Below are positions 6,583 through 18,791 of a stretch of 64,000 nt of DNA, one piece after another. Numbering within the stretch: the first letter of the stretch is position 1; each line of letters opens with the position of its first letter. Both the position numbers and the translations under genes were made by a program. A model generated the notes under the pieces. The model saw nothing but the letters and a program-made list of their open reading frames with translations. It was not told the origin of the DNA and did no database searches. Origin of the DNA: Isoptericola jiangsuensis (GTDB lineage: Bacteria; Actinomycetota; Actinomycetes; Actinomycetales; Cellulomonadaceae); assembly GCF_002563715.1 (NCBI RefSeq), contig NZ_PDJJ01000001.1:3162001-3226000 (forward strand). Reading direction: 5' to 3'.

Positions 6583-7242
6583 ATGATCTTCGAGAACCTG
6601 TTCGGCAGCGGCAAGCAGACGATGGTCGCCCCCGAGGAGGCCCTGCCCGGCCGCCAGTCCCCGGTGCTGCCCGCGCCGCGCCCGCACACCGTGCTGGGCT
6701 CGTCGTTGACGGGCCCGTGGGCGCCCGGCACCCGGGTGCTGTACCTCGCGATGGGCTGTTTCTGGGGCGCCGAGGAGATCTACTGGCAGGTCCCGGGCGT
6801 GGTGAGCACCGCCGTCGGCTACATGGGCGGCACGACGCCGAACCCCACCTACGAGGAGGTGTGCTCGGCGCGCACGGGCCACACCGAGACGGCGCTGGTG
6901 GCGTACGACCCGTCGGTGGTGTCCGAGGAGGAGCTGCTGCGGATCTTCTGGGAGCGGCACGACCCGACCCAGGGCTTCCGGCAGGGCAACGACGTCGGCA
7001 CCCAGTACCGCTCGGCGGTGTACTGGACGACGCCGGAGCAGGAGGAGGCCGTGAAGGCGACCGCCGCCCGCTACGGCGAGGTGCTGGCCGCGCGGGGCTA
7101 CGACCCGATCACGACCGAGACGGCGCCCGCCGTCGAGGCCGGGCCGTTCTTCTATGCGGAGGACTACCACCAACAGTACCTGCAAAAGCACGTAAACGGC
7201 TATCGTTGCCACAGCACGACGGGGGTTCCGTTCCCCGGGTAG
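6583..7242 (+). CDS. msrA: Peptide methionine sulfoxide reductase MsrA with element-supplied C-terminus
   Basis: 219 residues; reduces methionine-S-sulfoxide in proteins. The catalytic Cys59 is in [12 protein letters not shown], followed by the family motifs GYMGG, YEEVCS.RTGH, FW..HDPTQ and [14 protein letters not shown] lies a few bases before the ATG. The first 200 codons are native chromosomal sequence ending in QYL; the last 19 residues ([19 protein letters not shown]) come from the integrated element, because the crossover core CAGTACCTG falls exactly at codons 198-200. The displaced native tail, ending GYRCHATTGVPYPA, is found at 18726-18791. The recycling Cys in GYRCH is kept, so the hybrid enzyme should work. 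Codons in the new tail are less GC-rich than in the body. Confidence 0.96.
7174..7182 (+). other. attL core (CAGTACCTG)
   Basis: Nine bases identical to those at 18717-18725. Sequence left of the core is msrA coding DNA (the YHQ codons) and sequence right of it is element DNA. The reading frame crosses the core as Gln-Tyr-Leu. The core length fits the short cores of large serine recombinases. Confidence 0.85.
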
Positions 7243-7257
7243 ACAGAGAGGGTGCTC

Positions 7258-8817
7258 ATGGCAGGCGCGAAGATCGACCGAGTCGCAATCTACGCGCGTC
7301 TGTCCAGGGCTACTGAGGAGTCTGTCAGCATCGAGCGGCAGATCGAGTCCGCCCGGAACTACGCGAAAGCGCGCGGCTGGACCGTCGTCCTGGAGGCGAA
7401 GGACGACGGCGTCAGCGCCACCCGGAACAAGCCCGAGGACCGGCGCGGCTGGCAAGAGGTGCTTCACTCGCCCGAGGACTACCAGGCAGTCATCGTCTGG
7501 AAGATCGACCGGCTCGCGCGGAGGGTTCTCGATTTCCTCCACGCTGACGAAGAACTCCAGAAGCGGGGCGCCGCCCTCGTGGCAGTCGACCAGCCGATCG
7601 ATATGACCTCGCCCGAAGGTCGCGGGTTCACACAGATGCTCGCGATCTTCGGCGAGATGGAGGCCGCGGCTATCGCGGCGCGCGTCACGGCGGCTCGGCG
7701 GACGCTCCTCAACTCTGGGCGCCGAGTCGGTGGACGCCCCCCGTTCGGCTACATGAACATCGAGAATCCCGACGGCCCCGGCGTGATCCTCGCGCAAGAC
7801 CCCGCAACGATCGACTTCGTCCGTCAGGCGGCGGCCCGCGCCGCCGAGGGCGCCTCGCCCTACTCGATCGCCCGGTGGCTGGAGGCCTCCGGCGTCCGTC
7901 CGCGCCCTCGCCGAGTCCGGGACGCCGAGGGCAACCTCTCGGAGAAGCCCGTCGCCGCTGACTTCTGGCACGAAGCATCCGTGGACGCCTTTCTTCGGGC
8001 GCCCGCACTGGCGGGGCTGACGCCCTACTCCCCCGGTCGGAAGCCGAAGATGACGAAGAACTCGAAGGACTACGTCGTCCAGGACGTCCTTCGCGGCTCC
8101 AACGGCCTGCCGGTCGTGGACGAGTCCATCGCGATCATGACCCCGGCCGAGCGCCGGGCGATGCTTGCGACGATGGACTCCGCCAAGCGTCCCGGCGCGA
8201 GGACGCACGGCAACGCCGAGCCCGCGTTGCTCTACGGGCTCGCCCGGTGCGACGGGTGCGGGAGTCTCCTGCACCGCGCGTCGTCCAGCGGGGGCTATAC
8301 GACCTACCGGTGCTCCGATGCTGGCAAGCGGTGCCCGACGCGGGTGTCGATCAGCCGCCCTGCGCTGGAGGAGCATGTCGTCGCCGAAGTTATTCGGGTG
8401 GCGGGTGAACTCCCGGTGACGTTCGCCGAGGTGACCGCCCGTGAAGAACCGTCCCAACGCGCTGAGGTCGAGGCGGCAATCACGGATACCCTCACAGCAC
8501 TTGGTCAGGTCGATGACCTAGAGCAGGAGGAGCAACTCAACGCGCGACTCCGGCGCCTGAAGGCAGCACGCCGTGAGGCGCGGTCGAAGCCCGATCACGC
8601 CGAGGTCACCCTCCACGAGACGGGAGAGACCTTCGCCGAGGTTCTCGACCGGGTCAAGGACGTCGAGGAGCGCCGCCGCATCCTGGGAGCGGCGATCAGC
8701 ACCGTCACGGTGCGGCCCCCGCTCCGGCGCTCGAACAAGTTCGACCCTGACCGCGTCACGATCGAATGGGACACCGCCGAGAGCATGGACGCCGACCTCC
8801 AGATGCAGGTCGACTGA
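7258..8817 (+). CDS. Large serine integrase
   Basis: 519 residues. The N-terminal resolvase domain has the nucleophile Ser16 in YARLS, then SIERQ and VWKIDRLARR; the GEMEAAAIAARV helix leads into the recombinase domain (GGRPPFGY). A zinc ribbon with CDGCG ... YRC ... CP (around residues 325-360) and a charged coiled-coil region follow, as expected for unidirectional serine integrases that recombine attP and attB. The ATG at 7258 is chosen because AGAGAGG ends about 6 bases before it; an upstream in-frame GTG at 7252 is too close to that site. It begins 15 bp after the rebuilt msrA stop, so msrA transcription probably reads into it. No separate recombination directionality factor was recognised. 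Confidence 0.95.
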   Translation: MAGAKIDRVAIYARLSRATEESVSIERQIESARNYAKARGWTVVLEAKDDGVSATRNKPEDRRGWQEVLHSPEDYQAVIVWKIDRLARRVLDFLHADEELQKRGAALVAVDQPIDMTSPEGRGFTQMLAIFGEMEAAAIAARVTAARRTLLNSGRRVGGRPPFGYMNIENPDGPGVILAQDPATIDFVRQAAARAAEGASPYSIARWLEASGVRPRPRRVRDAEGNLSEKPVAADFWHEASVDAFLRAPALAGLTPYSPGRKPKMTKNSKDYVVQDVLRGSNGLPVVDESIAIMTPAERRAMLATMDSAKRPGARTHGNAEPALLYGLARCDGCGSLLHRASSSGGYTTYRCSDAGKRCPTRVSISRPALEEHVVAEVIRVAGELPVTFAEVTAREEPSQRAEVEAAITDTLTALGQVDDLEQEEQLNARLRRLKAARREARSKPDHAEVTLHETGETFAEVLDRVKDVEERRRILGAAISTVTVRPPLRRSNKFDPDRVTIEWDTAESMDADLQMQVD

Positions 8818-8840
8818 GCAACCTCTCTCTGCCCGCCCGC

Positions 8841-8865
8841 CCTCGGGCGCCGCGTAGCGCCGAGG
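8841..8865 (+). terminator. Possible integrase terminator hairpin
   Basis: CCTCGGGCGC pairs with GCGCCGAGG across a 6-base loop just after the integrase stop. There is no T-run, so intrinsic termination is uncertain. Confidence 0.35.
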
Positions 8866-8885
8866 AGGCCCCGTCCGTGGGCGCC

Positions 8886-8975
8886 GATGTACCGAAGGGC
8901 TGCACTCTCTAGGTCTGTGTTCTAGAGCCGCTCTGCTCTACTACAGACCTAGAGAGTGCAGCCCTTCCGTACATC
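8886..8975. repeat. 33-bp inverted repeat (24-base loop) after the integrase
   Basis: Arms 8886-8918 and 8943-8975 are complementary except at one position; the arms contain GCACTCTCTAGGTCTGT. The 24-base loop is less GC-rich than its surroundings and contains TCTAGAGC. A stem this long exceeds the usual intrinsic terminator. It could be a strong transcription block isolating the integrase, a structured RNA, or a DNA site used in replication or packaging. No coding sequence is supported here. Confidence 0.9.
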
Positions 8976-9062
8976 GCCCTCCAGAAAACCCCCTCCAGGC
9001 ATTCAGGTATCCCAGCCCGCGCCCGGCGCCTCCTGCCCCTGCGTGAGGCCCTGTCCAAGGCC

Positions 9063-9086
9063 GGACGGCCAACTCCCTGGCCGTCC
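9063..9086. repeat. Small hairpin in the integrase-downstream spacer
   Basis: GGACGGCCA and TGGCCGTCC form a perfect 9-bp stem with a 6-base loop. The 8818-9515 spacer holds this hairpin, the large inverted repeat and a likely promoter; I see no convincing gene in it. Confidence 0.45.
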
Positions 9087-9194
9087 GCCCTTCGTCGCTC
9101 TACGCGATTGTCTGTGATTTCTTGGGGCATACCACGCCGAGGCCCTCGCGCCGGGCGCTTCCCGCTTTCACCTCTGCAACCCTGAGTGTCGTTC

Positions 9195-9223
9195 TTGACT
9201 GCATTCCTATATTGAGTTCTAAG
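9195..9223 (+). promoter_or_regulatory. Candidate sigma70 promoter for the rightward block
   Basis: TTGACT at 9195-9200 and TCTAAG at 9218-9223 with 17-bp spacing, in an AT-richer patch upstream of the first rightward gene. The -10 matches four of six consensus bases. Confidence 0.4.
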
Positions 9224-9248
9224 GCGACTCTTTCACTCTAGTGCGCCC

Positions 9249-9445
9249 TGTTGCCCCTTGCCCCCTCTATTTCCAGCACCTATTTACTACACTGCCAGTT
9301 CACGCCGGAGAGGGCTCCGCCCTCGTCGTCCGGCCGGTAGGCCGTTTAGACACTCCCAGAGCCCTCCCCTGGGGCCTCCGGCCCGGACGGGGCGCCCGCC
9401 GCGCCACCCGCTAAAGGAACCCAGGGGGCACCGGGGCAACACTCG
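9249..9445. promoter_or_regulatory. GGGGCAAC repeat motifs upstream of the first rightward gene
   Basis: An inverted near-tandem copy (GGGGCAAGGGGCAAC on the minus strand, 9249-9264) and a direct copy CGGGGCAACACTCG at 9432-9445. The same 14 bases recur at 15295-15308 before another gene of the element. The repetition in two non-coding upstream regions suggests an operator or activator site; the regulator is unknown. Confidence 0.45.
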
Positions 9446-9515
9446 GCCGCGAGCCGCGCACTCCTTCAGCGTCACAACGGGGCACCCGGCCCCGCCCGAT
9501 CGTCTGGAGTCCCTC

Positions 9516-10397
9516 GTGCCCGACTTCCTCCCGCCCGTCCCGCTGCCGATCATCCGTTCGATCCTCGCCCTTCCCGACGAGGTCACCCGCCTCGACGCGG
9601 TCGTCCACGGGATCGCCCAGGGCTTCGACACCTTCCCGCTGACGACGCCTCTGCCTGCCGACGGGCTCCTCGCGGCCTGCCACGACGGGGACCTCGCCGC
9701 GCTGCCCGCGATTGTGAAGAAGGAGTCCCATGCCGACCCGCGGGCGCACCGGGCCGGGCTCCTGCCCCGCCGCCCTCTGGCGGCCGACCTCGCCGCGCGG
9801 GGCGTGACCTACTTCCGGGGCAACTTCCACATGAACGGCGACCACCTCGACCGGTACGACCTCGGCGAGGTCGCGGCCGAAGTCCTGCGGGACTGCGCCG
9901 CGGCGGTCGACCTCACGCCCTGGGGCGCGCTTCACGAGTTCCGCGCCCTCCTCGACGTCTTCGACTACGACGGCGACCCCACCCTCGCGTCCCTCGCCCA
10001 GAGACTGAAGGACGCGGAGCGCACCGCTGCCCGGCGCCCGGGAGCCGTGAGTCCTGCGGAGTCCGCCGACCAGGCCCACGCCCTGCGTCGCACCGCGGAC
10101 GACGTCCAGGCCTCCCGTCGCGTGATGGGCACCCTCGCCGAGATGCTTCACGGCCCTTTGACGGTCTCGACCCCGCCCGACGACGACCCCGCGGGCGAGG
10201 CCGCCCTCGCGTGGCTCGGGTTGCACGATGCCGAGTTGAAGATCGTCCGCCCCGACCTCGGCCGCATGTATGCGGCGGCCGGTTCTCCCGGCGCCCTGGC
10301 CCTGCCCGAGTTGTACGGGGCCGCCGCCGAGCGGTGGGGCCTCCCGACCAAGGTGCAGGGCATTTACGTCTTCCGCCCGGCGCGCGCCTTGAAGTGA
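9516..10397 (+). CDS. Element protein of unknown function
   Basis: 293 residues from GTG 9516 (VPDFLPPVPLPIIRSILALP), which has GGAG six bases upstream. The longer open frame back to 9258 would translate a low-complexity spacer and is rejected. No signal peptide, membrane helix or known motif is seen; the protein is acidic and soluble-looking, with DDD patches near residue 230. It is the first gene of the rightward block and sits before a strong terminator at 10538-10593, so it is probably a single-gene transcript, perhaps an early gene. Confidence 0.7.
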   Translation: MPDFLPPVPLPIIRSILALPDEVTRLDAVVHGIAQGFDTFPLTTPLPADGLLAACHDGDLAALPAIVKKESHADPRAHRAGLLPRRPLAADLAARGVTYFRGNFHMNGDHLDRYDLGEVAAEVLRDCAAAVDLTPWGALHEFRALLDVFDYDGDPTLASLAQRLKDAERTAARRPGAVSPAESADQAHALRRTADDVQASRRVMGTLAEMLHGPLTVSTPPDDDPAGEAALAWLGLHDAELKIVRPDLGRMYAAAGSPGALALPELYGAAAERWGLPTKVQGIYVFRPARALK

Positions 10398-10537
10398 GGG
10401 TCTCAGGAAGCGCCCTGCGCACTGTATCTGTAGGACGAGTTCACACTCGCCCCGCGTGCGGTGCGTCGCCTTCATCGACTCCCGCGCATTGAATCGCCGC
10501 GGCTCCTCCGGTTCGTGATCGGAAGTTGAAGCCCGGT

Positions 10538-10593
10538 AGGCCCCTGGGGCCGTTTCGCTATGAAGGAGCGAAGCGGCTCCGGGGGCTTTTTTT
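10538..10593 (+). terminator. Rho-independent terminator
   Basis: Arms 10538-10559 and 10567-10587 (pairing TTTCGCT with AGCGAAG, then GC-rich with a few G-T pairs) are followed by seven T residues at 10587-10593. It terminates the 9516-10397 transcript. The 10398-10537 spacer shows nothing else I can support. Confidence 0.8.
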
Positions 10594-10685
10594 GTTTGCG
10601 TCGAATCGTCGCCCGTGCCCGGCGCTGGACGATTCCGCCCGCTATTCACGACGCCGGACCCTCCGGCGAGATTGGAGATGCCGCT

Positions 10686-11135
10686 TTGGCATCGCACACC
10701 TTCAACGGCACAGAGAACGTCGGAGACGCCCTGCCGACCCTTCTCCCCGTCCTTCGCGATCTCCGAGACCTGCGGGCCTCGGCCGAGGAGGCCCGCTGGA
10801 CGCCTCCGTCCCGCGCTCGCTCGCGCGAGGACGCCGAGGGCCGCCGCCCTTCCGGTGGCCGCCGCTCGGACCCGACGGCCGCGGCGGCGCTGGACGACCG
10901 ACGTCTCGCCCTGTCGTCGGCCTGCACGAAGGCCGACGCCACGATGCGGGCGGCGACGACGGCGATCCTCGACGCCTACTCGGACCTCGCGAAGGCCTTC
11001 ACGGATTACGCGGAGTGCGACCTCCCCAGCGTCCACATGGCCCGCGCCTCGGCGACCTCGGATCCCGACGCTCGCGCCGCTCACATGCGGGCCTTCGCGG
11101 CCTCGGCGGGCATCCCGATGGGAGTCTTCGCGTGA
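10686..11135 (+). CDS. Element protein of unknown function (TTG start)
   Basis: 149 residues. The TTG at 10686 has GGAG eight bases upstream. The open frame extends back to an ATG at 10560, but that ATG lies inside the terminator loop and is unlikely to be used. The protein is Ala/Arg-rich with a basic low-complexity middle and a helical C-terminal half (ADATMRAATTAILDAYSDLAKAF). The stop overlaps the next start (TGATG), indicating translational coupling. Function not recognised. Confidence 0.6.
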   Translation: MASHTFNGTENVGDALPTLLPVLRDLRDLRASAEEARWTPPSRARSREDAEGRRPSGGRRSDPTAAAALDDRRLALSSACTKADATMRAATTAILDAYSDLAKAFTDYAECDLPSVHMARASATSDPDARAAHMRAFAASAGIPMGVFA

Positions 11136-11380
11136 TGCGCCACCGGTTCGTGTCCTACGTCGCCTATGTCGACGGGGTCCGCCAGGTCCGCACGGTGGCC
11201 CGCGACCAGCGTTCCGCGAGGACCGCGGCCGGGCCGATCGTCCCGCGCGCTCCCCGCGTGGCCCTGTGGGACGTGCCTTCCCAGCGTGAGGGCCGCGCCC
11301 GCGGCCTGGAGCCCGCCGACGTCGTCGCCGAGCACGTCGGCCCCCGCGCCCTTCCGACCTTCTCTTCCTTCACCCGATAG
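11135..11380 (+). CDS. Small element protein
   Basis: 81 residues (MRHRFVSYVAYVDGVRQVR...). The ATG at 11135 overlaps the preceding stop (TGATG). Basic N-terminal half, then a Pro/Ala-rich segment; no known domain. Its coupled position in the cluster supports it as real. Confidence 0.6.
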   Translation: MRHRFVSYVAYVDGVRQVRTVARDQRSARTAAGPIVPRAPRVALWDVPSQREGRARGLEPADVVAEHVGPRALPTFSSFTR

Positions 11381-11391
11381 GACCCCGCCTC

Positions 11392-12066
11392 ATGCCCACG
11401 AAGAAGCTCGCCCCCTCGTCCCTGCACTCCCTCGCCGACCTCCTGCCCACGACGGGCCGGTTCACGGTCGCCGTCCGTCTCGGCCCGGAGTCCCTGCGCG
11501 AGGCCCGCGCAAATGACGGCCCGCGCCGCGCGCACCTGCGCAACGTCCCGCCCGCGTTCGTCTCCGGCGCTCTGGCGGCCGACGGGACCACTAAGGCCCT
11601 CGCGGCCCTGGCCGAGGCCCGTGCCGCCTCCAGTGCCGCGCACGACGCCCTTCGCACGGCCACCTCGGCGCGCGCGGCCCTGCCCGGCGATTCCACGCCG
11701 GGCGAGGTCGAGGAGGCCGAGGTCGCCAAGCGGGATGCAACCCGCGCCCTGGCCGCCGCCCAGCGCGTCACGACCGCCGCCGAGGTGGCCGCCGTGACCG
11801 CGATCTACGACGTGCCCGAGGACCTCGCGGCCCGTCGCCGCGAGGCCTACGCGACCGCCCGCACGGTGGCCGTGCTCCAGGCGCGCGAAGCGCTGGTCTC
11901 GCTCACCGAGTCCCTCTCGATGATCGCGGCCGACGACTACGTGAACCCGGCGTCCGACGCCTCGCGCGTCATCCTCGCCGACCGTCCTGCCGGGTCGGAG
12001 CACCTGCACGCGATCACCGAGTTCGTCGCGGGCTTGAAGACCGAGGACGAGGAGGAGGCCCGATGA
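11392..12066 (+). CDS. Element protein of unknown function, helical
   Basis: 224 residues starting MPTKKLAPSSLHSLADLLP, with a long Ala-rich helical middle (about residues 60-190) that could form a coiled coil or bundle. Ends in an acidic EDEEEAR tail. The stop overlaps the next ATG (ATGA). The position just upstream of packaging genes would suit a structural or packaging accessory role, but nothing in the sequence proves this. Confidence 0.65.
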   Translation: MPTKKLAPSSLHSLADLLPTTGRFTVAVRLGPESLREARANDGPRRAHLRNVPPAFVSGALAADGTTKALAALAEARAASSAAHDALRTATSARAALPGDSTPGEVEEAEVAKRDATRALAAAQRVTTAAEVAAVTAIYDVPEDLAARRREAYATARTVAVLQAREALVSLTESLSMIAADDYVNPASDASRVILADRPAGSEHLHAITEFVAGLKTEDEEEAR

Positions 12067-12224
12067 GCGCGCCCGCCCTCCAGGTGCAGGCCTTCGCGGC
12101 GGCCGTCGTGGCCGCGCGCGAAGCCGAGCACGACCGAGCCGAGCGGGCGGCCCTCGGCGAGTCCCTCACGGCCGAGGACCACGCCGACGTCGCCGCGTCT
12201 GCCCGCCGTCCCCGCTGGTCCTAG
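12063..12224 (+). CDS. Very small element protein (53 aa)
   Basis: 53 residues (MSAPALQVQAFAAAVVAAREAEHDRAERAAL...), one predicted helix followed by an acidic stretch and a basic RRPRWS end. The ATGA overlap with the upstream gene argues that it is translated. Function unknown. Confidence 0.5.
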   Translation: MSAPALQVQAFAAAVVAAREAEHDRAERAALGESLTAEDHADVAASARRPRWS

Positions 12225-12232
12225 TTCGTCCG

Positions 12233-12268
12233 CCGTCGTCGTCGGACCTCGCCGTCCGGCGACGACGG
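12233..12268 (+). terminator. Hairpin between small genes and packaging genes
   Basis: Arms 12233-12247 and 12254-12268 form a 15-bp stem with one mismatch and a 6-base loop. No T-run follows, so it may attenuate rather than terminate transcription. It separates the 53-aa gene from the TerS-like gene. Confidence 0.45.
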
Positions 12269-12380
12269 CCCCCTCGGGGGAGCCCCGGCCCTCGACTTCT
12301 ACCCCCGAGAGGGCATGGCGCCTAGCCCCAAGCGTCCGCATGACGCCCCGCCCCCCAATGACCCGCCCAAGGAGGCGCCC

Positions 12381-12746
12381 GTGAGCACGACACCCGCCCC
12401 CGACGGTTGGGCCTTTCCCGAGGAGTGGAGCGCTGAGGCGCTCGAAATGGCGGCCGAGGTCCTCGCCCAGAGAGCCGACCTCTCCGGCGCCGAGGTCGCC
12501 CTCCTCGAAAATGCCGGCTGGCTCCTGACGCAAGCCTCGATCGCGTTCGACGTCGCCAAGCGGCACGCCTTCGAGTCCACGACGGACCGCGGCGCGATCA
12601 CCCTGCACCCCGGCCTCGCCGAGGCCCGCCAAGCCCGCCTCGCCGCGAACGCCGCCCTCCACAAACTCGTCCCGCACGACTCCGGCGCCGCCGCTGGGAC
12701 GATCGCGGGCGCGTCCCTGGCTCGGCGCCGCTGGAGCCCACGTTGA
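12381..12746 (+). CDS. Terminase small subunit-like protein (P27-type)
   Basis: 121 residues from GTG 12381, which has AAGGAGG six bases upstream; an ATG at 12315 lacks such a site. The order of features is that of actinophage TerS proteins: an N-terminal helical DNA-binding part (GAEVALLENAGWLLTQA), then GAITLHPGLAEARQARLAANAALHKL, and a C-terminal ARRRW. TerS recognises phage DNA and delivers it to the large terminase. No large terminase follows, so this protein may redirect a helper phage's TerL, as in phage satellites (inference). Confidence 0.6.
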   Translation: MSTTPAPDGWAFPEEWSAEALEMAAEVLAQRADLSGAEVALLENAGWLLTQASIAFDVAKRHAFESTTDRGAITLHPGLAEARQARLAANAALHKLVPHDSGAAAGTIAGASLARRRWSPR

Positions 12747-13018
12747 GACGCCTCACGCCGTCGGCGCCCGCCCGCCCGACGGTCGAGGTCCGCGGCCCGG
12801 ACGGCCCCGTCACGGTGCCCGCCCCGCACGGCTGGACGGCCGGGACGGTGTCCCTCGCCGATGCCGCCGCGGCGGCCGACGACATCGTCGCCGCCCTTGG
12901 CTGGCCGCCGTCCTACCGGAGCCGCGTCCTGACCGCCGTGGCCGCCTGGGACGACCCGAGCCCCGGCGTCCCGCGCCTGTCCCGCGAGTCCCTGGCCGCC
13001 CGCCTGGCGACCGACTGA
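12743..13018 (+). CDS. Small element protein (TTG start)
   Basis: 91 residues; TTG at 12743 overlaps the TerS-like stop (TTGA) and has GGAG at 12733. The sequence has a short beta-rich N-terminus (TVEVRGPDGPVTVPAP) and a helical C-terminal half. In phages this position usually holds the large terminase, which is absent. Function unknown. Confidence 0.55.
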   Translation: MRRLTPSAPARPTVEVRGPDGPVTVPAPHGWTAGTVSLADAAAAADDIVAALGWPPSYRSRVLTAVAAWDDPSPGVPRLSRESLAARLATD

Positions 13019-13077
13019 CCACACCCTCCGCGCCGCCCTTCCCGGCGTGGCCTTGACCTTTGAGGAGCCCACAAACG

Positions 13078-14490
13078 ATGACCACGACCACGACGCAAGC
13101 CCGCGACCTGATCGACCGTCTCGACGCCGAGAGGGCGCCAGGCGGACGTCTCGACATTGCCGAGAGGTACGCCTACTCCGGCGACACCGACCTCCCGTAC
13201 ATGCCGCGCCAGGCCCGCCGCGAGTACCGCGAACTCGCCAAGTCCAGCCGGGAACACCGTGTACCTGCCGTTCTCGGCGCCCTGACGGCCCCGCTGCGCG
13301 TCGTCGGATTCCGTTCCACCGGCGCGACGGACAACCTCTCCCCGTGGGACAACTGGCAAGCAAATGGCTTGGACGCCCGCGCGGACGGAGTCCACATGGA
13401 CGCTCTCGCTGCGGGGGTGTCCTACGTTCGCGTCACGCCGTCGAACCAGCCGGGTCGCGCGGCGATCACACCGTGCCGCTTCGACTCGGTCCTCGCCGAC
13501 TACGCCAACCTCAACGGCAAAGACACCGACTGGCCCACGATCGCCCTGCACTACATCGGGACGACCGTGGACACCTTCGGGACGTCCCGCCGCGTGTTCG
13601 ACGTCTGGGACGCCGAGAGCCGGACCCGATTCACCGAGACCGACCGGACCGACAACGTCGGGGGCCTGGTCGCGTCTGAGCCCGTGGAGCACGGCCTCGG
13701 CGTCGTGCCGATGGTGCGCTTCCGTGAGCGCTGGAGCCCGTCGGGGTCGCCCGGCCTCGCCTCGGTGCTGAAGAACCCGGCCGACCGCCTCAACCGCGCC
13801 CTCCTCGCGTGGGAGGTGGCGATTCAGTACGCCTCCTTCCGCCAGCGGTGGGCGACCGGTCTCGTGATCCCGGAAGACGACGAGACCGGCGAGCCCGTGG
13901 AGCCGTTCGAGTCGGCTGTCGATCGCCTCTGGGTCTCGGACTCCCCGGACGCGAAGTTCGGTGACTTCGCCCAGACGGACACGTCGGGCATGAGGGCCGC
14001 GGTCGAAGACGCGCGCACGGCCCTCGCGGTCCTTGCTGGCGTCCAGCCGGGCTTGGTCGAGGGTCTCGACGTGGCCGGGGCCAAGACCGGCGCCGCCGCG
14101 ACGTCGTCGTCGCTCATGGACCGGCGCCTCCGCGCGCTCTCGGCGTCGTTCGGCGAGTCGTGGGAGCAGGTCCTGAGACTCGCTGCCCAGATCACGGGAG
14201 ACACCGAGGCCGCCGCCGACACGTCGGCGCGGGTCGTGTTCGAGGTGATCGAAGCCGAGTCCGTCCAGGCGACCGTGACCGCCCTCGCGACGGCCGTCGG
14301 CTCGCTCGGTCTGCCTCCGGAGGCGACGTGGCCCTCGCTGGTCGCGGTCATCCCCGGCGCCTCCGCGAACGACGTCGAGACGTGGAAGGCGCTGGCCCGT
14401 GACCGTGACGGCCGCGCCGGGCTCGCCGTCGACTACGTCGTCGGCGCCGAGGAGCCCGCGGTCGAGGCCGAGCCCGCGGTCGCCGCGTGA
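13078..14490 (+). CDS. Phage portal protein (SPP1 gp6-like)
   Basis: 470 residues. Typical portal layout: an N-terminal clip region with MPRQARREYRELAKSSREHRVP, a central part with VPMVRFRERWSPSGSPGLASVLKNPADRLNRALLAWEV, and an acidic Ala/Glu-rich C-terminus. The portal forms the dodecameric vertex ring through which DNA enters the capsid and recruits the terminase. GAGGAG lies about 10 bases before the ATG; an upstream TTG extension is not needed. Stop and next start overlap (GTGA). Length is close to the usual 450-500. Confidence 0.85.
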   Translation: MTTTTTQARDLIDRLDAERAPGGRLDIAERYAYSGDTDLPYMPRQARREYRELAKSSREHRVPAVLGALTAPLRVVGFRSTGATDNLSPWDNWQANGLDARADGVHMDALAAGVSYVRVTPSNQPGRAAITPCRFDSVLADYANLNGKDTDWPTIALHYIGTTVDTFGTSRRVFDVWDAESRTRFTETDRTDNVGGLVASEPVEHGLGVVPMVRFRERWSPSGSPGLASVLKNPADRLNRALLAWEVAIQYASFRQRWATGLVIPEDDETGEPVEPFESAVDRLWVSDSPDAKFGDFAQTDTSGMRAAVEDARTALAVLAGVQPGLVEGLDVAGAKTGAAATSSSLMDRRLRALSASFGESWEQVLRLAAQITGDTEAAADTSARVVFEVIEAESVQATVTALATAVGSLGLPPEATWPSLVAVIPGASANDVETWKALARDRDGRAGLAVDYVVGAEEPAVEAEPAVAA

Positions 14491-15269
14491 CGCCCGAGGA
14501 GGGGGCCGCGTGGGAGGCCCTGCGGGTGTCCGTCGCGGCGCGCTCCTCGCGCGTTGGGTCGGCCTTGGAGGGGCTCTGGTCGGGCCGGATGACGCCGGGG
14601 ACGCTGACCGCCTCGGCGACCCGCTCCGCGTTCCTCGGCGACGTGCTCGCGCTGGTCCGTGAGGCCTACGGCGCGAACTCCCTGGAGGCCCTGGAGGCCT
14701 ACCGGATCGCCCGCGCCGCGGCGGGCCTCGGCCCGCTGCCCGCGACCCTCGACCGGCCCGCCTCGGCGAACCCTGACCGCGTCCTGGAGTCGGTCGAGGG
14801 CATCGTGACGGCGCGCCTGGACGCCGAGGACACCCCGACGCTGCGGACGGCCGAGCAGGCCCTCGCGGCCGTCTCGGCGCGCGCCGTGAGCCTCGCGGCC
14901 TACGGCTCCTCAGACCAGATCATTCGGACAGTGGCCCGCGACCGGGACGCCGTCGGCTGGGAGCGGTACGACGACGTCGGCGAAACGTGCTCGCGTTGTC
15001 TTCTACTTCTGGCGAGAGGTCCGGTCTACTCGGCGACGTCGTCGTCCTTCGCCCGGCACCCACACTGCACCTGCGGAGCCCGCGCGGTCTTCACGGACCG
15101 CGGCCCGAGCCCGGAGGCGCGGGAGGCCTATGGCTTCTATGCCGCCGTCCAGCGCGGCGAGTTCCGCTACCCCGAAGGGCACCGCCTGGAGGGCGAGCGC
15201 CTCTCGTTCCGCGCGGCCCTCGCGGCGCAACGGGCGGGCACTCTGGAGTCCTTCCGCGCCTCGGCGTGA
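14487..15269 (+). CDS. MuF-like minor head protein
   Basis: 260 residues from a GTG overlapping the portal stop. The C-terminal half holds the Cys/His pattern of actinophage MuF/VG15 head-morphogenesis proteins: WERYDDVGETCSRC, RGPVYS and FARHPHCTCGARAVF. These proteins bind the portal and are packaged in, or help assemble, the head. The N-terminal half is helical. Portal and MuF adjacent with translational coupling is the normal phage order, but the next expected genes (scaffold, major capsid) are missing. Confidence 0.75.
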   Translation: MTPEEGAAWEALRVSVAARSSRVGSALEGLWSGRMTPGTLTASATRSAFLGDVLALVREAYGANSLEALEAYRIARAAAGLGPLPATLDRPASANPDRVLESVEGIVTARLDAEDTPTLRTAEQALAAVSARAVSLAAYGSSDQIIRTVARDRDAVGWERYDDVGETCSRCLLLLARGPVYSATSSSFARHPHCTCGARAVFTDRGPSPEAREAYGFYAAVQRGEFRYPEGHRLEGERLSFRAALAAQRAGTLESFRASA

Positions 15270-15287
15270 TGCCGAGCGAAAGAAGTT

Positions 15288-15308
15288 GGGGCAACGGGGC
15301 AACACTCG
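15288..15308 (+). promoter_or_regulatory. Tandem GGGGCAAC operator-like repeat
   Basis: GGGGCAAC occurs twice in direct tandem (15288-15303) and runs into ACTCG, giving an exact 14-base match with 9432-9445. It lies 26 bp before the next gene and probably marks a shared regulatory site. Confidence 0.45.
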
Positions 15309-15333
15309 CGACGTCGCCGCGTACTGCCTGAGC

Positions 15334-15657
15334 ATGAACAACAACACCGACCCCGCCGCCCCGACGACCGCCTCCGCCGTTCCGTTCACGGAGCACGGCG
15401 AGGTCCGCGTCGACTCGGCCCGCCTCCTGATCGTGGACCCGGCCTACCTCCCGGCCGACCTCGTGGAGCGCCTCACGACGCCGAACGCCTACGGCGTCTC
15501 ACCCGCCCTCATGCTCTGCACCCCGAGCGTCGACGGCTGGCACGACGTCTGGAGCGACCCGGAGGAGTCCGCCGAGCACGGCATGGCGACGCTCCACATC
15601 ACCGCCCCGAGCGTGAGGCTCGGCGAGGTCTTCCACCTCACGGACATGCACCACTGA
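15334..15657 (+). CDS. Element protein of unknown function
   Basis: 107 residues (MNNNTDPAAPTTASAVPFTEHGEVRVDSARLLIVDPAYLP...). The ARLLIVDPAYLP segment followed by HDVWSDPEE is a recurring pattern in small actinobacterial mobile-element proteins, but I cannot name the family. Last gene of the rightward block, with its own upstream GGGGCAAC motif and the terminator at 15666 directly downstream. No clear Shine-Dalgarno. Confidence 0.65.
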   Translation: MNNNTDPAAPTTASAVPFTEHGEVRVDSARLLIVDPAYLPADLVERLTTPNAYGVSPALMLCTPSVDGWHDVWSDPEESAEHGMATLHITAPSVRLGEVFHLTDMHH

Positions 15658-15665
15658 CGCACGAG

Positions 15666-15699
15666 AAGGCCCCGACCCTCAAGTGAGGGCCGGGGCCTT
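15666..15699. terminator. Bidirectional terminator at the convergence point
   Basis: AAGGCCCCGACCCTC pairs with GAGGGCCGGGGCCTT (one internal mismatch) around a 4-base loop, between the rightward gene ending at 15657 and the leftward operon ending at 15720. Confidence 0.75.
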
Positions 15700-15719
15700 C
15701 GGGCGTTGTGGGTCAGGGA

Positions 15720-16436
15720 TCATGAGCCGAGGAGCCCCTGAATGGCGGCGGTGGCACTCGACGCGACGAGAGGGATACCGTCCCCGGCCGCGACGTTCGC
15801 TGAGAACTGCAAGACCCAGTCGGAGGCCTTCTGTCTCCACGCGCTGCGGTGCGGCTCTGGGACCACCTCTGCCGTGAGGGACGTAGTCCCGATGAACTCG
15901 GCAACGAGTGGTCCGGCCTGATCTGCCCGACCGTTCTCCACCGCCTCACGAATCGCAGCGAGGAGCCCCAGGAGGTGCAAGCGGAGTGAGTCCCTGATTT
16001 CCTCTGCGCCCTTGATGAAGTCCTCTGCGTCTGTGATCGCAGCCTCGACCTTCTCGATCGATTCCGGACCCAACTGGACTGAGCCGCCAGCAACGTCGGT
16101 CGTGATCGCAAGGGACCGAAGTAGCCTGAGGTCGCCAGCCCCGACTACCGCACGCGAGATGGTCGCCACGTTCGACCAACCCTCATCTATCGAGTAGATG
16201 GACTCTGCCCAACGAGTCAGGGCCTCCTCAAAGTCCGCCACGTCGTGACCTCGGGCGCGAAGCCTGACGATGTCCTGTTCGACCAAGGAGAGGAGGTGTG
16301 TAGCGCGCTTCATCTCCTCGTGGAGCGTCGAGTCCTTCCCTGCCGCGACACTGCGCCGATGGTCGATCGCGTCGACACGAGCCGGAATCGTCCACTCGTC
16401 CAACATGACGGCGAGTTCGCGTGCAGGGTTCTTCAT
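15720..16436 (-). CDS. Element protein of unknown function, helical
   Basis: 238 residues, helical throughout (MKNPARELAVMLDEWTIPARVDAIDHRRS...). No signal peptide; a hydrophobic stretch LRLHLLGLLAAIREAV near residue 155 is amphipathic rather than membrane-spanning. Codon use is less GC-extreme than in chromosomal genes. The ATG overlaps the stop of the DUF2637 gene (ATGA), so it is the last gene of the leftward operon. Function unknown; an immunity or superinfection role is possible but unsupported. Confidence 0.7.
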   Translation of the reverse strand: MKNPARELAVMLDEWTIPARVDAIDHRRSVAAGKDSTLHEEMKRATHLLSLVEQDIVRLRARGHDVADFEEALTRWAESIYSIDEGWSNVATISRAVVGAGDLRLLRSLAITTDVAGGSVQLGPESIEKVEAAITDAEDFIKGAEEIRDSLRLHLLGLLAAIREAVENGRADQAGPLVAEFIGTTSLTAEVVPEPHRSAWRQKASDWVLQFSANVAAGDGIPLVASSATAAIQGLLGS

Positions 16437-17116
16437 GACGCGAAAGTACCGGAAAGTGTCGTCAGAAGGGCGCCTGAGTCTTCTTCGACCGGCGTGTCAC
16501 GCAACCGTCGCGCGACGGTGGAGGCATGGCATCCAAAGGCCGCCCCAACCTCGCGCAACGTGGCGCCCGCGGACCTCATGGCCTGCATCGCGGCGAGTGT
16601 GTCCTCGACCTCGATGGGCTCCTCCTCGGCGTCGTCTGCAACGTCGTCGGCGACGAATGCAACGTCCGGCGCAACGGGCTCCTCCTCGGCTGCAACGTCC
16701 ACATCCTCGGCCGTACCCGGCGCAAGGAGCGCCGCGAGGGTGTGCGTCGCCACGAGGACCACGACGGGCGCGAGTCCGACGACGAGCACGCCGACCGCCA
16801 CGCGCGCTGCCTCGGGAACGTGCGCGCCGAGGCCGTGCGCTGTATTGGCTGCCACGCTGACGACGGCGAGGACGCCGAGCGCGCACCATTCGACGCCCGC
16901 GCCGCGCCCCTGCCCTCGGCGCACGAGTGCGGCGAGGCTGAAGGCGAGCGCGCCGCCGTCCGTGAGGACGGGGACGCACCATGCGAGGCGGCCATCCACG
17001 CCCGCCCAACCGGCGACCGCAACGAGCGCGGACGCCGAGAGGGCGAAGGACGCGACGGCGACGACGCCGACGAGCGCGGCGACCGTCCAGACGACGGCGG
17101 GGGCGGGTCGGTTCAC
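16433..17116 (-). CDS. DUF2637 membrane protein with C-terminal HTH
   Basis: 227 residues from GTG 17116 (GAGGAG eight bases upstream). The N-terminal ~115 residues have four hydrophobic segments including VVWTVAALVGVVAVASFAL and VLTDGGALAFSLAALV, typical of DUF2637, a family common on actinobacterial integrative elements and plasmids. An acidic linker (residues ~140-180) leads to a helix-turn-helix: TLREVGAAFGCHASTVARRLRD. A membrane-tethered regulator or a spread/maintenance function is plausible. The longer frame up to 17380 is antisense-like extension and is rejected. Confidence 0.8.
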   Translation of the reverse strand: MNRPAPAVVWTVAALVGVVAVASFALSASALVAVAGWAGVDGRLAWCVPVLTDGGALAFSLAALVRRGQGRGAGVEWCALGVLAVVSVAANTAHGLGAHVPEAARVAVGVLVVGLAPVVVLVATHTLAALLAPGTAEDVDVAAEEEPVAPDVAFVADDVADDAEEEPIEVEDTLAAMQAMRSAGATLREVGAAFGCHASTVARRLRDTPVEEDSGALLTTLSGTFAS

Positions 17117-17127
17117 GATGGGGCTCC

Positions 17128-18144
17128 TCACGGGTTGACGATCACGGGGCGGTGCGTGGAGTAGAGGGCGGTGCGCCGAGCCGACTCGATCGAGGCGCGG
17201 ATCGAGGCCCGTGCGGAGGCGACGACAGCAGGCCGGGAGGCGGCCCGCTCGGCGGCCTCCTCGGCCTCGCGGCGGCGGGCACGCTCGGCGCGCTCCTCGG
17301 CGGCCTTGGCGGCCCGCTCGGCGGCCGTGCGGTGGCCGCTGGCGCGTCCGGCGCGGAGACGGGCGCCGAGCCATGCCCACGGGTCACGGGCGTCCTGCGC
17401 GGCCCACACGCGGCCCGTGCCGCCCGCCTCGGCGATCGCGAGCACGTCGCCCGCGGTGGCACCCTCGACGGCCGGACCGAGCGCCCGGACGAGGACGTCG
17501 GCCAACCCGCCAACATGGCGACCGACCGGGGCGAGGTGAGGCGCCCGTCGGGCGACCTCGGCCGTGAGCCGCTGGAGTCGGATGCTCCTCGGCGCGGTCT
17601 GGGTCTTCGCGGAGCGCTTCGCCCCGGCGCGTCGCGCCTTGGGGGTGTTCTCATTACCCGAGGACCCCTCACGGCTAAAGCCGGAGGGGTGGGCGGACAC
17701 GGCGCCGCCGGTCAGAGCCCACACCGAGGCGGCGCGGATGCCCCGCGCGCCGACGTCCCGCCGCTCCGCCCTCTCGGCGCGCGTCAGGTGACGGCCCTTG
17801 AACACCTCGACGGCGAGGCCCTCGGCCGCGAGCCACGCCCGTGCCCGGCGCACGGTCCGATCGGTTACGCCCGCCCGCTCGGCGGCCGTGTCGACGCCGA
17901 GGGCGACCCCGCGGCCGGTACGCCCGTCCGCGGCCTCGGCGAGGACCCGCGCGACGGCGAGGGCGCCCGCGGTGGCCCCGCGAGCCTCGACCTCGGCGAG
18001 CCACTCCCGCCGCCCGGCCCACACCGGGACGCGGCTGTAGGCCCCCGCCTCGACCATGTCGTGCCATGCCCGACGACGCCCCCGACGGGACGCCGAAGGG
18101 CGGCCGGCCTCCGAGTTGGAGACGGGCCGACCCCCGCGGTTCAC
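17128..18144 (-). CDS. Winged-HTH replication initiator-like protein
   Basis: 338 residues from a GTG that overlaps the upstream stop (GTGA). Around residues 60-120 there is a helix-turn-helix (GVDTAAERAGVTDRTVRRARAWLAAEGLAVEVFKGRHL) of the kind found in actinobacterial plasmid and integrative-element replication proteins, followed by the linker SREGSSGNENTPKARR, a helical region and a long Arg/Ala/Glu coiled coil (residues ~275-320). It is directly upstream of the DUF2637 gene. Whether it starts replication or only regulates transcription cannot be told from sequence. Confidence 0.6.
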   Translation of the reverse strand: MNRGGRPVSNSEAGRPSASRRGRRRAWHDMVEAGAYSRVPVWAGRREWLAEVEARGATAGALAVARVLAEAADGRTGRGVALGVDTAAERAGVTDRTVRRARAWLAAEGLAVEVFKGRHLTRAERAERRDVGARGIRAASVWALTGGAVSAHPSGFSREGSSGNENTPKARRAGAKRSAKTQTAPRSIRLQRLTAEVARRAPHLAPVGRHVGGLADVLVRALGPAVEGATAGDVLAIAEAGGTGRVWAAQDARDPWAWLGARLRAGRASGHRTAAERAAKAAEERAERARRREAEEAAERAASRPAVVASARASIRASIESARRTALYSTHRPVIVNP

Positions 18145-18623
18145 GCGGCGATGAGCGAGCCGTTGAGGACCGCGGCACCGAGGCGCACGCGATCTACGAC
18201 GACGGCGAACACACGGGCTCGTTCGGCGGCATCTCGGAGCGTGAGCCCCGTAGGTCGCGCCTCCTCGATCCTCGCGAGGTGGAGGAGGACGCGGCCGTGG
18301 AGGACGCCCGACACCGAGGCCGTAGCGGCCTCCTCGACGTCGACCTCGCCGCGGGCGATGAGGGCCTCGGCCTCGGCGACCTCAACCGCGAGGTCCTCGA
18401 CCGGCTCCGAGTCGACCTCGACGTCGTGCTCGGCCTGCCAGGCGGCGATCGTCTCGACGGCGGCCTCGACCTCGGCGGCGCCGGTCTCCGTCGGGCTGTA
18501 CGCGGTCGCGCCGCAGATCAGGCAGGCGACCCGGTAGTCGTCCCGGCGCGCGGTGGTGGTGTGCGGGCACTCGCCGCTCTCCGCGCCGGACCAGTAGAAG
18601 AACGTGCAGGTACGCTGGAGCAT
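18141..18623 (-). CDS. Small Cys/His protein, first gene of the leftward operon
   Basis: 160 residues. The N-terminal ~40 residues contain C6, CPH and CLIC, a likely zinc-binding knuckle; an acidic helical region follows. The stop overlaps the next start. The start lies only ~95 bp from attR, so the operon promoter must be within that spacer. Function unknown. Confidence 0.6.
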   Translation of the reverse strand: MLQRTCTFFYWSGAESGECPHTTTARRDDYRVACLICGATAYSPTETGAAEVEAAVETIAAWQAEHDVEVDSEPVEDLAVEVAEAEALIARGEVDVEEAATASVSGVLHGRVLLHLARIEEARPTGLTLRDAAERARVFAVVVDRVRLGAAVLNGSLIAA

Positions 18624-18681
18624 GTCGGGAATCCCCCCGGCCGTGCCCCCGACCGGTGCCAGCCGGTGCGGGGGTTTCTAC

Positions 18682-18703
18682 GTGTTCCGACTACGCGGAA
18701 CAC
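18682..18703. repeat. Inverted repeat in the attP-derived arm
   Basis: GTGTTCCG and CGGAACAC flank a 6-base centre, 14 bp from the attR core. Such dyads are common in phage-derived att arms and may be part of the integrase binding site or an operator for the leftward operon. Confidence 0.5.
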
Positions 18704-18716
18704 CTGACACGGCCAG

Positions 18717-18725
18717 CAGTACCTG
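18717..18725 (+). other. attR core (CAGTACCTG)
   Basis: Identical to the attL core. Left of it is element DNA; right of it the native msrA frame resumes. Joining the left msrA flank to this right flank regenerates an uninterrupted 221-codon msrA. Confidence 0.85.
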
Positions 18726-18791
18726 TCGGCGGCGAAGAACCCGCACGGCTACCGCTGCCACGCCACCACCGGGGTGCCCTACCCCGCGTGA
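18717..18791 (+). pseudogene. msrA: Displaced native 3' end of msrA
   Basis: Translates as QYL followed by a 21-residue tail ending GYRCHATTGVPYPA and a TGA at 18789-18791. It is the C-terminus of the original msrA, separated by the element, with no start of its own. The native terminator hairpin follows at 18801. Confidence 0.93.

Follow-up and report, generated by a model that had tools for sequence, protein, structure and literature searches.

Capsid-forming phage-inducible chromosomal islands (cf-PICIs) carry head and packaging genes of phage origin and depend on a helper phage for tails, their set comprising capsid, protease, portal, connectors, the small and large terminase subunits (TerS and TerL), and HNH in the accessible text of PMC10690885. 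The Streptomyces satellites MulchRoom and MiniFlayer, covered in the same text, have portal and terminase genes of their own within a full capsid and packaging set, and carry a tyrosine integrase (MulchRoom) or none (MiniFlayer). In the accessible portions of PMC10654092, candidate phage-inducible chromosomal islands (PICIs) of Mycobacterium are defined by an integrase plus a major capsid protein, include serine integrases and terminase, scaffold, and capsid genes, and still have their induction to be shown. Here we consider an 11,543-bp element, likewise still a candidate, in a 64,000-nucleotide stretch of Isoptericola jiangsuensis DNA (contig NZ_PDJJ01000001.1, positions 3,162,001 to 3,226,000; hereafter, the window); the host genome is a single contig of 4.04 Mb.

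Like the Mycobacterium candidates and phiRv1/phiRv2, the element is small, bears an integrase, and has few head or packaging genes; in contrast to those candidates, it encodes a portal and a MuF-type minor head protein and has no capsid gene. It resembles the two Streptomyces satellites in being actinobacterial with portal and terminase genes of its own, and cf-PICIs in its phage-derived head genes, but where a cf-PICI holds a complete head set it has only TerS, portal, and MuF, with TerL, capsid, and connectors missing. Among the matches listed, the closest integrase, portal, and MuF, as well as the closest capsid, adaptor, Terminase_7 TerS, and HNH of its sister elements, belong to AZ-type phages (Reedo, DrManhattan, MaGuCo, and JuneStar, together with Curtobacterium phage Halsey and Microbacterium phage Cen1621, which we place with the AZ/EH types by our own comparison and not by their record labels). 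Five of these six phages share with the element a long inverted repeat after the integrase gene; they are, however, complete phages of 40–49 kb with TerL, tails, DNA polymerase, and primase, as against 11.5 kb here, and the Azeevirinae arrangement seen in phage records (about 42–45 kb with TerS-TerL-portal-MuF-scaffold-major capsid protein and replication genes) is not that of the element. The element probably works like a PICI-type satellite, and it is neither a cf-PICI nor an intact prophage: it is integrated, with attachment (att) sites and an integrase, and has a TerS of its own, whose predicted role is redirection. PICIs have conserved regulators and a conserved layout, for example of the Stl/AlpA type; none of these families appeared among the profile matches of the scanned open reading frames (ORFs), for which no dedicated models were used, and the only helix-turn-helix (HTH) match lies in g11. 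We found no description of a portal-MuF satellite without a capsid gene in the literature searched, most subscription papers being outside its reach.

The element is probably a PICI-like satellite, integrated and dependent on AZ-type helper phages, and would use its TerS together with a portal-MuF vertex to turn helper heads over to its DNA. Three findings support the satellite reading: another species keeps the gene order although integrase and insertion site differ, the genes appear to be under purifying selection, and no TerL was detected in a family of sister elements either. Known satellites capture heads through TerS, through scaffold or size factors, or through a full head set; a lineage that substitutes only the portal vertex would make it testable whether the portal, and not the shell, decides which DNA is accepted, and would be missed by the integrase-plus-capsid rule of the Mycobacterium survey.

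An element inserted in msrA and its head genes

The element lies between two copies of the att core (Table 1), at the ends first proposed for it (7174 and 18725), and interrupts msrA: a new MsrA C-terminus follows the left junction and the native C-terminus the right one. In all 17 other genus genomes searched, the MsrA match begins no later than residue 5 and extends to residue 218 of 219, and the host genome of the window gives the same match plus a separate C-terminal match at window positions 18708–18785. An uninterrupted msrA site was displayed for 11 of the 17 loci by a string filter, the six that did not pass the filter standing outside this count. We take the att-bounded insertion in msrA to be established from the sequence.

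On the plus strand, the serine integrase is followed by g2, g3, g3c, g4, g4b, TerS, g6, portal, MuF, and g9, and a minus-strand block holds g10, g11, g12, and g13. The 15 translated ORFs contain no internal stop, and the ORFs, gene order, and overlaps (TerS/g6 as TTGA, portal/MuF as GTGA) are those given in the first-pass annotation, as are the portal start at 13078 and, probably by alignment, the TerS start at the GTG at 12381 (that frame is open from the ATG at 12315). Its portal and MuF assignments likewise held in profile searches (portal: PF05133, E 8e-14, and PHROG portal, E 6e-59; MuF: Pfam VG15, E 3e-16, and PHROG head maturation protease, E 1e-18); portal and MuF-type proteins act together in SPP1-like phages. 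TerS is weak when searched alone (phrog_1496, E 0.009; no NCBIfam match). Nevertheless, the assignment is supported, because phrog_1496 is matched by all three members of a family that joins the window protein with those of two sister elements, G018 and G031 (best E 3e-6), and because in genome G157 a TerL gene (phrog_9, E 1e-63) begins inside the gene of a profile relative (E 3.5e-8); the head operon there goes on with a portal, then a MuF match and a phrog_10 capsid gene.

The absence of TerL, capsid, and tail genes, also claimed at the outset, was borne out with the queries used (seven for TerL, with others for capsid, tape-measure, major-tail, tail, and lysin proteins): only the portal and TerS queries and the element's own genes matched it, lysin being unmatched too, so that neither a complete-virion set nor an intact-prophage set (TerL, capsid, tail) was found. 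None of the nine small elements considered below (the window element included) matched any of the TerL, tape-measure, major-tail, tail, or lysin queries. The ten control stretches comprised five prophage head regions, two cf-PICI-like elements, Reedo, Halsey, and the right half of the G117 prophage, which has no TerL region; each of the nine with such a region was matched by one or more TerL queries taken from elsewhere. PHROG profiles agreed with eight query names (tape-measure, major-tail, minor-tail, lysin, G117 and G135 capsid, G135 and G170 TerL). A wider test used 929 plus-strand ORFs of at least 80 amino acids from six AZ/EH-type phages at a threshold of E 1e-5. Matches of the window element were limited to portal, MuF, and integrase; those of the nine elements together extended only to TerS, capsid, adaptor, and HNH besides these three, along with a few small genes, and no element matched a TerL, tail, primase, or polymerase ORF.

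Table 1. Features of the element, in window positions (aa, amino acids).
Feature	Position	Strand	Remarks
attL core CAGTACCTG	7174–7182		inside msrA; element provides replacement MsrA C-terminus
Large serine integrase, 519 aa	7258–8817	+	PF00239 E 9e-30, PF07508, PF13408; phrog_95 E 2e-85
Long inverted repeat	8878–8983		41-nt arms, 90% complementary; begins 61 nt past integrase stop
g2, 293 aa	9516–10397	+	relative in G018 element (tblastn E 9e-15)
g3, DUF7169 protein	10560–11135	+	PF23773 E 4e-14; also in sister elements and Curtobacterium phage Halsey
g3c, 82 aa	11132–11380	+	short conserved stretch in common with I. luteus element
g4, 224 aa	11392–12066	+	predicted long helical bundle; copy in I. 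luteus element
g4b, 53 aa	12063–12224	+	short relative in I. luteus element, E 0.005 over 27 residues
TerS	12381–12746	+	phrog_1496 family; relative overlaps TerL in G157
g6, 91 aa	12743–13018	+	coupled to TerS
SPP1-type portal, 470 aa	13078–14490	+	full length; profile matches
MuF-type minor head protein (VG15), 260 aa	14487–15269	+	coupled to portal
g9, 107 aa	15334–15657	+	relative adjoins capsid gene of G018 element
g10, 238 aa, cargo ORF	15720–16436	-	atypical codon use; no counterpart in I. luteus element
g11, DUF2637 region and C-terminal HTH (PHROG excisionase-like)	16433–17116	-	PF10935 E 1e-7, phrog_733 E 9e-10; start inferred from translation
g12, weakly replication-initiator-like	17128–18144	-	phrog_270 E 8e-4; common to several sister elements
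g13, 160 aa	18141–18623	-	copy in I. luteus element
attR core CAGTACCTG	18717–18725		native msrA 3' end follows

Among the remaining genes, g2 had no match in Pfam, PHROG, NCBIfam, or PADLOC, and its structure model was not usable (predicted local distance difference test, pLDDT, 35). PADLOC found nothing in the three window proteins scanned (g2, g9, g10), and g6 had no clear family match in Pfam and PHROG scans. The g4 model is helical (pLDDT 67), with no significant fold match in a viral structure library, the PDB library not having been searched; its long helical bundle, in this modest model, leads us to guess that g4 could be a scaffold-like factor.

The Isoptericola luteus element and the sister family

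A scan of genome contigs with the window portal returned one relative, in Isoptericola luteus NEAU-Y5 (G142), of the same genus. Its element lies in a different host gene, has a distant integrase (26% identity) and other cargo, and keeps the order g4-portal-MuF-g11-g12-g13; identities are 57% for g4, 69% for the portal, 62% for MuF, 69% for g11, 63% for g12, and 56% for g13. The ratio of nonsynonymous to synonymous substitution (dN/dS), from a simple Nei-Gojobori count with one pair per gene that is rough in such GC-rich DNA, is 0.30 for the portal, 0.35 for MuF, 0.39 for g4, 0.28 for g11, 0.51 for g12, and 0.56 for g13. These comparisons support the view that the element is not a one-off remnant and that its genes are under purifying selection. 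The original suggestion of a satellite-like module thus gains from the conserved order, the selection, and the sister family, while its emphasis on an own TerS does not carry over to I. luteus, where no TerS is recognisable despite the portal and MuF.

We extended the search to 221 genomes of the bacterial family, of which 16 matched the portal (two with this module), 11 g12, 12 the TerS profile, eight a satellite capsid profile, nine DUF7169, and ten g4 at E 0.01 (two strongly); at E 1e-15, g12 was found in the host genome and one other among 396 genomes drawn from the order. Seven further small serine-integrase elements were resolved, without TerL or tail matches and with different head-gene subsets: capsid and TerS in G018; TerS, an HNH-type gene, and a relative of AZ-type gp5 in G031; capsid in G038 and G197; capsid and adaptor in G111; a Terminase_7-type TerS, capsid, and adaptor in G132; and g11 and g12 with no head gene in G020 (L115 3345–16396), which also carries a cytosine methyltransferase and Vsr, possibly defence cargo. 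The nine elements were recruited by window and sister genes, so that the traits they share come from a biased sample, and the ends of the sister elements were placed by reference to neighbouring host genes, without base-level mapping. The nine-element comparisons did not include loci whose ends or head genes could not be settled: with g12, G149 (at a contig end), G173, G211 (of which 4.4 kb was fetched), and G487; with TerS or DUF7169, G084, G118, G010, and G186, a large phage- or plasmid-like locus; and a remnant in G145.

The G020 element bears on two other accounts. That of an integrative plasmid-like element, built on the g11-g12 module and carrying captured phage head genes as passengers, would explain why g11 and g12 occur there without head genes, and DUF2637 and replication-initiator-like genes are also found in actinobacterial plasmid-type elements; against this, relatives of g11 and g12 also occur in the G117 prophage and eight of the nine elements carry TerS, portal, or capsid genes, and we consider the account very improbable. 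Alternatively, portal, MuF, and TerS might poison the heads of infecting phages through mixed portals or mis-packaging, as an interference island that defends the host without spreading itself. Satellites commonly interfere with their helpers (PMC11389934, in the text accessible), a portal alone could be dominant-negative, and the methyltransferase and Vsr of G020 would fit such a role. Integrase, att sites, and a replication-like gene nevertheless indicate mobility, and simple poisoning needs neither a MuF partner nor a TerS, which makes this account quite unlikely.

Several further observations were made on these loci. The HNH-type gene of the G031 element (L191 11566–11871) is 67–76% identical to a gene that each of the six AZ/EH-type phage records has toward its end, annotated as HNH endonuclease in five of them; it is closer to the phages than are the element's other shared genes. 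In flank readings, six sister elements (L113, L114, L190, L191, L201, L202) adjoin TadA/TadB-like pilus genes, so these integrases seem to have targeted this locus repeatedly. The G117 prophage (L116/L117) has TerL, capsid, and tail genes with g11/g12-like genes at its right end, and adjoins the same thioredoxin/NHL-like gene that the I. luteus satellite uses; the names of this gene and of the Tad pilus locus as att sites are our presumption from reading the ORFs, not from a profile. The TerS-like remnant in G145 (L192 9963–10205; profile E 7e-25), beside a thioredoxin/NHL-like gene, is perhaps the leftover of a satellite, and G084 resembles a prophage with tail genes by ORF reading. Finally, cf-PICI-like elements with TerL, portal, and capsid matches are present in the same bacterial family (G135, L136 7400–17500; G169, L139); no tail gene was seen in them, and host-like ORFs lie a short way past the head genes.

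AZ-type phages as candidate helpers

We compared these genes with 50,697 phage records. The portal matched 1181 of them, all below 60% identity and reaching 43% among the matches listed; 819 of the 1181 are mycobacteriophages, as are many of the weaker portal and capsid matches. The integrase is 34% identical to AZ-type Arthrobacter phages, its best among the matches listed, and the best-listed phage matches of integrase, portal, MuF (partial), sister capsids (37–42%), adaptor (64%), and G132 TerS (58%) all fall in phages of Arthrobacter, Curtobacterium, and Microbacterium, of which many belong to Azeevirinae/cluster AZ. The window TerS, the G018 TerS, and g12 had no match in these records; Halsey-type phages use a Terminase_7 TerS, unlike the window family, and neither Reedo nor Halsey matched g2, g4, g9, g11–g13, or the window TerS. 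As a side observation, the MuF homolog of several AZ-type phages is also annotated as a VIP2-like ADP-ribosyltransferase (records H58, H60, H62, H64, H65), whereas the satellite MuF is a short form.

We also scanned IMG/VR with the portal, using the best 80 of 180 relatives. A TerL match accompanied 49 of these 80 loci, and two (L056, L070) have upstream DNA present with no TerL match; none of the 80 matched g2, g3, g4, g9, or g11–g13, and scans with g4, g12, and TerS alignments gave no relatives. In a 30-row portal tree, for which 20 of the 80 loci were used, the two satellite portals form one clade (support 100/100) on a long stem among phage portals. With phage portals this distant, and with non-satellite portal matches in the 221 family genomes peaking at 33–34%, no homologous full prophage was met from which the element could be a simple internal deletion, a possibility that the first-pass annotation had itself raised.

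The satellite reading suggests the following course. Induction would come from an Azeevirinae/cluster AZ-type phage, either temperate or infecting, and the element would excise and replicate using g12. The satellite TerS would bring the helper large terminase to satellite DNA, and the satellite portal and MuF would form the entry vertex of heads made from helper shell and scaffold, such heads then being filled with satellite DNA and fitted with helper tails. Sister elements would supply a capsid, an adaptor, another TerS, or an HNH endonuclease of the same machinery, and because they supply these different parts, competition between the family and its helper appears to work by replacing one component or a small number of them. 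The satellite may follow its helper through the inverted repeat behind the integrase gene, as a site of control or replication.

A number of observations weigh against this reading. A search of the host genome for a helper prophage, another suggestion of the first-pass annotation, came back empty for phrog_9 TerL; of the two TerL families searched, phrog_2 gave a single weak and probably spurious match (E 7e-6) in a 1747-aa open frame that is probably another ATPase. No close AZ-type portal occurs in the 221 family genomes except in the two satellites. Since no TerS is recognisable in the I. luteus element, the portal-MuF module cannot depend on a TerS step. Part of the selection seen in the low dN/dS could be older than the exit of the parts from a phage. 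The repeat is weak (scores of 11–15, defined below) in five of the nine elements (G038, G018, G020, G111, G132) and in one of six phages (DrManhattan, 10). As an alternative, an AZ-like temperate phage may have lost its TerL, capsid, tail, and replication genes by deletion, the rest now drifting: the order of integrase, TerS, and portal-MuF is compatible with an integrated AZ-type genome, the integrase, portal, and MuF resemble AZ-type genes, and the G117 prophage (TerL, capsid, tail) has a g11/g12-like right end and adjoins the I. luteus att gene.

We nonetheless consider such a decayed prophage unlikely. The identical reduced set recurs in two species with differing integrases and sites, dN/dS is about 0.3 with all ORFs open, and the window TerS and g12 lack any counterpart in the phage records, where Halsey-type phages have a different TerS. 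Reduction of a phage is a likely origin of the element, but ongoing decay is not supported.

An inverted repeat after the integrase

The repeat that directly follows the window integrase (RNA fold z -12) has a counterpart after the integrase of the I. luteus element (43-nt arms, z -17). The two share GTACCGAA/TTCCGTAC at their outer ends, with the same mismatch, and differ in their stems. To compare loci, we scored the best repeat in the 600 nt after each integrase, a score defined after the first sightings. It reaches 31 in the window, 37 in I. luteus, 28 in G031, and 20 in G197; among phages it is 30 in Halsey, 24 in MaGuCo, 23 in Reedo, 20 in JuneStar, and 17 in Cen1621, with 7 and 9 in the control phages Bxb1 and phiC31. 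A second site lies before the exonuclease gene (Halsey 21, MaGuCo 20, JuneStar 20, Reedo 13, Cen1621 13, DrManhattan 10), where the arms repeat the post-integrase sequence in Halsey, MaGuCo, JuneStar, and Reedo. Away from both sites, none of 261 windows in these four phages reached 17, and four of 86 host-flank windows did. Rfam gave sub-threshold matches only, three of them miRNA-like on the inverted repeat, and an ACGGAA motif at first thought common to the repeats was dropped, being absent in G018, G111, G020, and others.

The AZ-type repeats are a candidate control site in phages without a known repressor, and the shared repeat is a lead to the immunity control of AZ/EH phages. Powerpuff, a cluster AZ phage, is shown to be temperate in PMC8758107; it encodes a serine integrase, and no repressor is known for it. 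The text of that paper does not use the words inverted, palindrom-, hairpin, or operator; the available part of a Microbacterium phage paper places short repeats in cluster EG. Tentatively, it is possible that satellites of the Isoptericola/Cellulomonas group hijack the AZ-type lineage by single head-component swaps (the portal vertex in some members; shell, adaptor, TerS, or HNH in others), and that the post-integrase repeat both couples their control to the helper and is the missing AZ regulatory site. In the AZ-type phages themselves the repeats are long and phage-specific and occupy both places, immediately past the serine integrase and ahead of the exonuclease gene, as in Reedo (L232 35275–35397 and 19915–20021) and Halsey (L233 33055–33173 and 19966–20070).

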